Source: Candidatus Ruminococcus equi (GTDB taxonomy: Bacteria > Bacillota > Clostridia > Oscillospirales > Acutalibacteraceae). Taken from it: 64,000 nt of DNA. Position 1 is the stretch's first letter. Each line of letters opens with the position of its first letter. Of this stretch, positions 27,584 through 53,870 are shown one piece after another. A model generated the notes under the pieces. It was not told the DNA's origin. It saw nothing but the letters and a program-made list of their open reading frames with translations, and did not search any database. Made by a program: the position numbers and the translations under genes. The stretch is from the NCBI GenBank assembly GCA_018065465.1, contig JAGHTC010000058.1:1-64000 (forward strand), in the 5' to 3' direction.

Positions 27584-27592
27584 ACATCGTTC

Positions 27593-27632
27593 AAAAAAAT
27601 CTCTTTTGTCTGATGACAAAAGAGATTTTTTT
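27593..27632. terminator. bidirectional terminator next to tRNA-Arg
   Basis: aaaaaaatctcttttgtc-tgat-gacaaaagagattttttt. Confidence 0.85.
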
Positions 27633-27634
27633 GT

Positions 27635-53573: not shown

Positions 53574-53870
53574 AAAACGCCTTGTAGGCGGCTTCAATTA
53601 GGGATAAATAGTCTGAAAATGTGAATATCTGCGAATAACTGCTTCAAAAATACTCGACATACGACAGTATGCCGAGCATTTTGTTCATTGTTCTTCATCC
53701 AAAATTCATCATTTTCAGATGCTTTGCAGTTTAAACGAGAAAAAATCTGTGCATGGTGAAATAAAAAAGTGCAGATATACTGTCGTATATTAAGCTTTTT
53801 TATAAGCCACTGTGCGATTTTTACCGTTTTAAACCTGTTTGCTCCCTAATTGAAGCCGCCCAAGCGTTTT
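53574..53870. mobile_element. MITE-like non-coding element with long terminal inverted repeats
   Basis: 53587-53604 GGCGGCTTCAATTAGGGA and 53843-53860 TCCCTAATTGAAGCCGCC (18/18 inverted), outer arms aaaacgccttgta / caagcgtttt also inverted; no ORF inside. Confidence 0.65.

Follow-up and report, generated by a model that had tools for sequence, protein, structure and literature searches.

Between a DUF177 gene and a lipoprotein gene of Candidatus Ruminococcus equi, in the 64,000-nucleotide stretch analysed here (the window), lies a non-coding segment bounded by terminal inverted repeats (TIRs), and the question is whether such a segment is mobile, a structured RNA, or both. The original prediction had left this as a MITE or a large structured RNA. 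We assign a probability of about 0.87 to its being a non-autonomous structured MITE of a Clostridia family that inserts into the hairpin loops of intrinsic terminators. Copies of the element are dispersed, lie in terminator loops, have empty orthologous counterparts and preserve a Y-shaped pairing.

A 274-bp element with dispersed copies

The perfect 18-bp TIRs and the two inner dyads from which the element had been recognised are present (Table 1), and the lack of coding capacity is confirmed, as no ORF of at least 60 aa overlaps it. Perfect 18-bp inverted repeats within 300 bp of each other occur at two places in the window, one being the element and the other (27592/27616, spanning 27592-27633) a compact hairpin. 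Short, non-coding and bearing TIRs, the element is on these features a MITE. Just downstream of it, a sequence that matches the promoter pattern TTGACA-17-TATAAT perfectly (53548-53520, minus strand) faces the DUF177 gene.

Table 1 Features of the element and of its insertion site in the window.
Feature	Position	Strand	Basis and remarks
Mobile element, 274 bp	53587-53860	+	T-end left, G-end right; limits from the C57 and C81 copies and the family alignment
Left TIR, T-type end (GG..TTAGGGATAAAT)	53587-53604	+	Sequence GGCGGCTTCAATTAGGGA; family alignment
Right TIR, G-type end (GG..TTAGGGAGCAAA on the minus strand)	53843-53860	-	Exact inverse of GGCGGCTTCAATTAGGGA
T-arm, long imperfect hairpin (limits approximate)	53611-53721	+	Helices 2-6 of the consensus structure; covariation; fold
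Hairpin at T-arm tip, core ATACGACAGTAT (53659-53670)	53653-53676	+	Dyad CTCGaCATAC-gaca-GTATGcCGAG; core at element position 73 in most copies
G-arm, second long imperfect hairpin (limits approximate)	53730-53834	+	Helices 8-10; covariation
Hairpin at G-arm tip, core ATACGACAGTAT inverted (53777-53788)	53775-53790	-	Dyad ATATAC-tgtc-GTATAT; core-position comparison across the family
Host intrinsic terminator, left arm (AAAACGCCTTG)	53574-53584		Pairs with 53861-53870 in the fold
Host terminator, right arm (CAAGCGTTTT)	53861-53870		Lies some 10 bp past the stop codon of the lipoprotein gene (53880, minus strand)

Two more copies are present among the 98 contigs of the genome, 92% (contig C57) and 91% (contig C81) identical and aligned over 53587-53863. 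All three occupy unrelated loci: the window copy lies downstream of the lipoprotein gene, one of the others upstream of eno and the remaining one between convergent ybbR-like and rodA genes. Searching with the TIR pattern recovered relatives within the same order, and a scan of 84,980 genomes with this pattern gave 34 stretches, mainly in Oscillospiraceae/Clostridia assemblies of gut origin (goat, buffalo, yak and horse). A few matches in Acidobacteria and elsewhere lack a second end and look like chance. Where both ends were available, they were spaced 240-277 bp apart.

A model of the T-half matched, patchily, in 17 of 120 genomes of the genus, in 2 of 399 genomes of the phylum sample (both in the same order) and in 47 of the 391 sampled genomes of the class, the last figure including weaker matches (to positions 25-142 only) that represent related two-armed elements with other ends. 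The search for further copies advised by the original prediction thus yielded two in the genome and a patchy presence in relatives. The two findings that it had named as speaking against its own reading, a single copy or one conserved locus, are contradicted by the three genomic copies, the patchy relatives and the empty orthologous sites of other copies; a conserved cis RNA at one locus was rejected. The family consists of small gene-less mobile elements of largely gut Clostridia that sit in terminator loops, and it was not found in the libraries searched. No Rfam match was found, which led us to reject a described structured RNA family, and a plasmid or phage origin was discarded for want of a real match.

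The copies split intrinsic terminators at the loop

The TIRs had been thought to continue outwards as imperfect repeats of about 30 bp, formed by AAAACGCcTTG and its counterpart on the right. These outer sequences differ in every copy and are the arms of a host terminator. The flanking inverted repeat is the insertion target, a point that had been missed. The flanks change from copy to copy, left and right are complementary to each other, and A- and T-runs bound them: they are a bidirectional intrinsic terminator split at the loop. On the minus strand, the left arm of the window copy reads CAAGGCG, the 3' arm, and runs into TTTTTT. The three genomic copies have different flanks, each self-complementary, as in AAAAAAGACCGC-[element]-GCGGTCTTTTTT on C81 and AAAAAGGGCGGAC-AAA-[element]-AAA-GTCCGCCC on C57.

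Over 34 complete copies, true flank pairs have a duplex energy of -15.0 kcal/mol and mismatched ones -7.7 kcal/mol, and none of 20,000 permutations reached the true value. The 21 copies found by TIR gave -14.2 versus -8.1 kcal/mol and, independently, the 13 further copies, from other families and found by a covariance model, -16.4 versus -7.5 kcal/mol (0 of 20,000 permutations in each set). Clear flank pairing was missing in about 5 of the 34.

Empty sites were found in G155, a sister species, where the orthologues of three G099 insertions are plain terminators without the element. The orthologue of L084 reads GCATCCCGAGGC-GAAT-GCCTCGGGATGC-TTTTTTT, with an alignment that spans the junction, and for those of L046 and L049 the alignment covers one side; because orthologous terminators differ in sequence between species, the pre-insertion bases cannot be read directly from them. 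The lipoprotein gene beside the window copy is not conserved in the genus, and the empty sites thus come from other copies.

At the junctions, the two end bases of the element are variable but complementary to each other in 32 of 34 copies. The next 2 bp outwards are the same on both sides in 22 of 34 copies, where 12.4 would be expected, and are mostly TT or AA; a short, AT-biased target duplication of 2 bp (AA/TT) is probable. A 3-bp duplication was dropped, since only 1 of 34 copies has it next to the element.

A Y-shaped fold conserved by covariation

The fold at the window copy has a z-score of about -10 with both RNA and DNA parameters, far beyond chance. Once oriented, the copies show two distinct end types, GGGATAAAT and GGGAGAAATC, and can be aligned end to end. 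Their consensus is a Y, made of a TIR stem and two arms of about 110 nt. Each arm carries its hairpin core some 72 bp in from its end, and the cores of both arms stand in inverse orientation at a fixed spacing. That the dyad cores are inverse copies of each other had been observed before; as the family keeps the core at this distance from each end, their placement is not accidental.

The covariance model used was R2; R1, built from mixed halves, gave almost no pairs. Across 18 sequences and 77 pairs, 93.3% of the cells are paired, compared to 40-50% when the partners are slid by 1-3 columns, the pairing figures being somewhat favoured because the structure was derived from these same 18 sequences, and double changes occur at 44 of the 77 pairs. 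The covariation score is 0.391 versus 0.151 in shuffles, none of the 500 shuffles reaching it, and of the two controls the slid one deserves more weight, since shuffling takes no account of relatedness. Among pairs that the structures of the two strands share, the numbers of G-U and A-C cells are similar (17 and 13, respectively), and the strands do not differ in mean folding energy. With neither strand favoured, the fold is indicative of DNA, or of transcripts from either strand, and leaves a dedicated one-strand RNA gene unsupported.

Source of the mobility and of the fold

The reading that comes closest to the one preferred here, possible if short of an even chance, is that of an ordinary MITE cut down from an IS, in which a DDE transposase prefers palindromic targets, as with IS1397 and ISKpn1 in REP palindromes and IS1272 in inverted repeats, and the inner structure is incidental. 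The TIRs, the uniform size of 240-277 bp and the short AA/TT repeats agree with it, and palindrome-targeting IS are known (PMC1525189, PMC5678879). However, a passive deletion derivative would need neither the strong covariation of the arms nor their fixed spacing across families, and no IS with these ends came to light. The transposase with the same TIRs that the original prediction proposed to look for was not found: the pattern scan of 84,980 genomes, a TIR search of five carriers and the nearly complete G768 (covered up to the last ~0.7 kb of contig C1) revealed no family member with a transposase gene, a weak negative because draft assemblies often break at these repeats. For a MITE, a parent IS sharing its ends is usual but no strict requirement. 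The solitary matches in G768 are decayed copies. Pairing of distant ends also yielded no autonomous IS with the same ends; the one candidate, about 2 kb long (G815:C41), differs in its ends and contains an ordinary methyltransferase-like gene. DUF772 (PF05598), the sole IS family model tested, is absent from the element's own genome.

Long quasi-palindromes undergo strand switching, which copies one arm onto the other, and being prone to it they could in principle acquire covariation by mutation instead of selection. The lack of strand preference in the pairing would fit, but we consider this origin unlikely, as such correction would tend to remove the unpaired positions and the unpaired core loop GNCA, which are found at fixed places across families. 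A structured RNA made from one strand, with spreading genes and the RNA as functional product, would explain the covariation and the fold z-score but is highly improbable given the missing Rfam match, the balance of G-U and A-C cells and the equal energies. Of what had been predicted, mobility stands on the dispersed copies with TIRs at unrelated loci and structure on the covarying fold, while pairing that prefers neither strand gives no support to a dedicated one-strand RNA gene.

Proposed mechanism

For a structured MITE that targets terminator loops, an enzyme supplied in trans would recognise the TIRs, perhaps the arms too, and would cut in the loop, often leaving a 2-bp AA/TT repeat. The folded-back element would then rejoin the two halves of the host terminator, and many copies may bring terminator-like hairpins of their own. 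Because of this reunion and these hairpins, insertion would do little harm to termination; retained termination is a prediction from folding. In the window fold, the host terminator arms close the base of the Y, so that termination of the lipoprotein transcript may survive. A terminator loop would be a near-harmless landing site, offered at hundreds of places per genome. That a class-wide gene-less family uses terminator loops, with a fold kept from one bacterial family to the next, suggests an as yet undescribed mobility enzyme and offers a directly testable case of structure-guided insertion. A fuller version, in which a Y-shaped single strand or a cruciform is the moving form, has its arms recognised by the enzyme, enters an extruded terminator loop and leaves the terminator working, seems doubtful to us.

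Comparison with known systems

The element is compared with, and not filed under, IS1272, the REP-palindrome IS and group IIC introns because each differs in a defining point. IS1272 (IS1182 family), which transposes by "inverted-repeat replacing", also targets inverted repeats or stem-loops of varying sequence (PMC5678879). However, it replaces the target stem-loop, whereas both target arms remain as flanks in the element family, and no link of the element to such a transposase was found; derivation from IS1182/IS1272 was rejected on the retained arms and the absence of PF05598, the one family model tested, from the genome. IS1397, ISKpn1 and other IS resemble the element in inserting specifically within palindromes, those of REP (PMC1525189), but they need particular REP sequences and encode a transposase, whereas the element is non-coding and its target is a terminator of varying sequence. 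Assignment to the REP/RAYT repeats, defined as 20-40 bp with a GTAG or CGTC tag at one end, fails on the 274 bp and the TIRs.

Group IIC introns prefer terminators and insert beside the stem. Like the element, they choose structured DNA targets (PMC10190682). The element differs in having TIRs, in lying inside the loop and in lacking a ribozyme or reverse transcriptase; with no Rfam match and no ORF at the element, neither ribozyme domains nor an intron-encoded protein were found, and an intron was rejected. The repeats BOX, RUP, SPRITE, ERIC, NEMIS/Correia and bcr1 are structured and MITE-like. They are small, dispersed, non-coding and foldable as is the element, but insertion in terminator loops is not among their descriptions in the excerpts available, where SPRITE appears as a terminator-like repeat (PMC10969869). 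What distinguishes the element family is its Y fold with inverse cores; from bcr1, ERIC and NEMIS it is set apart by descriptions, not by sequence.

Related elements and assembly breaks

The related two-armed elements with other ends (L155, L156, L159, L162, L163, L166 and L228) have a variable outer stem TARGC..GCYTA and an inner AGTCGAAYCC resembling a tRNA T-arm, and are perhaps a sister family with another target.

The family accounts for some of the intergenic repeats at which gut Clostridia assemblies break, with contigs ending inside elements. This is the case for contigs C4/C41 (L020/L048) and C186/C182 (L038/L051) of G115, where each pair of contig ends looks like both ends of one copy, with matching terminator arms. 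Contig ends of G768 also fall inside elements of the family, and this genome further contains a TPP riboswitch (L175, 17246-17353).
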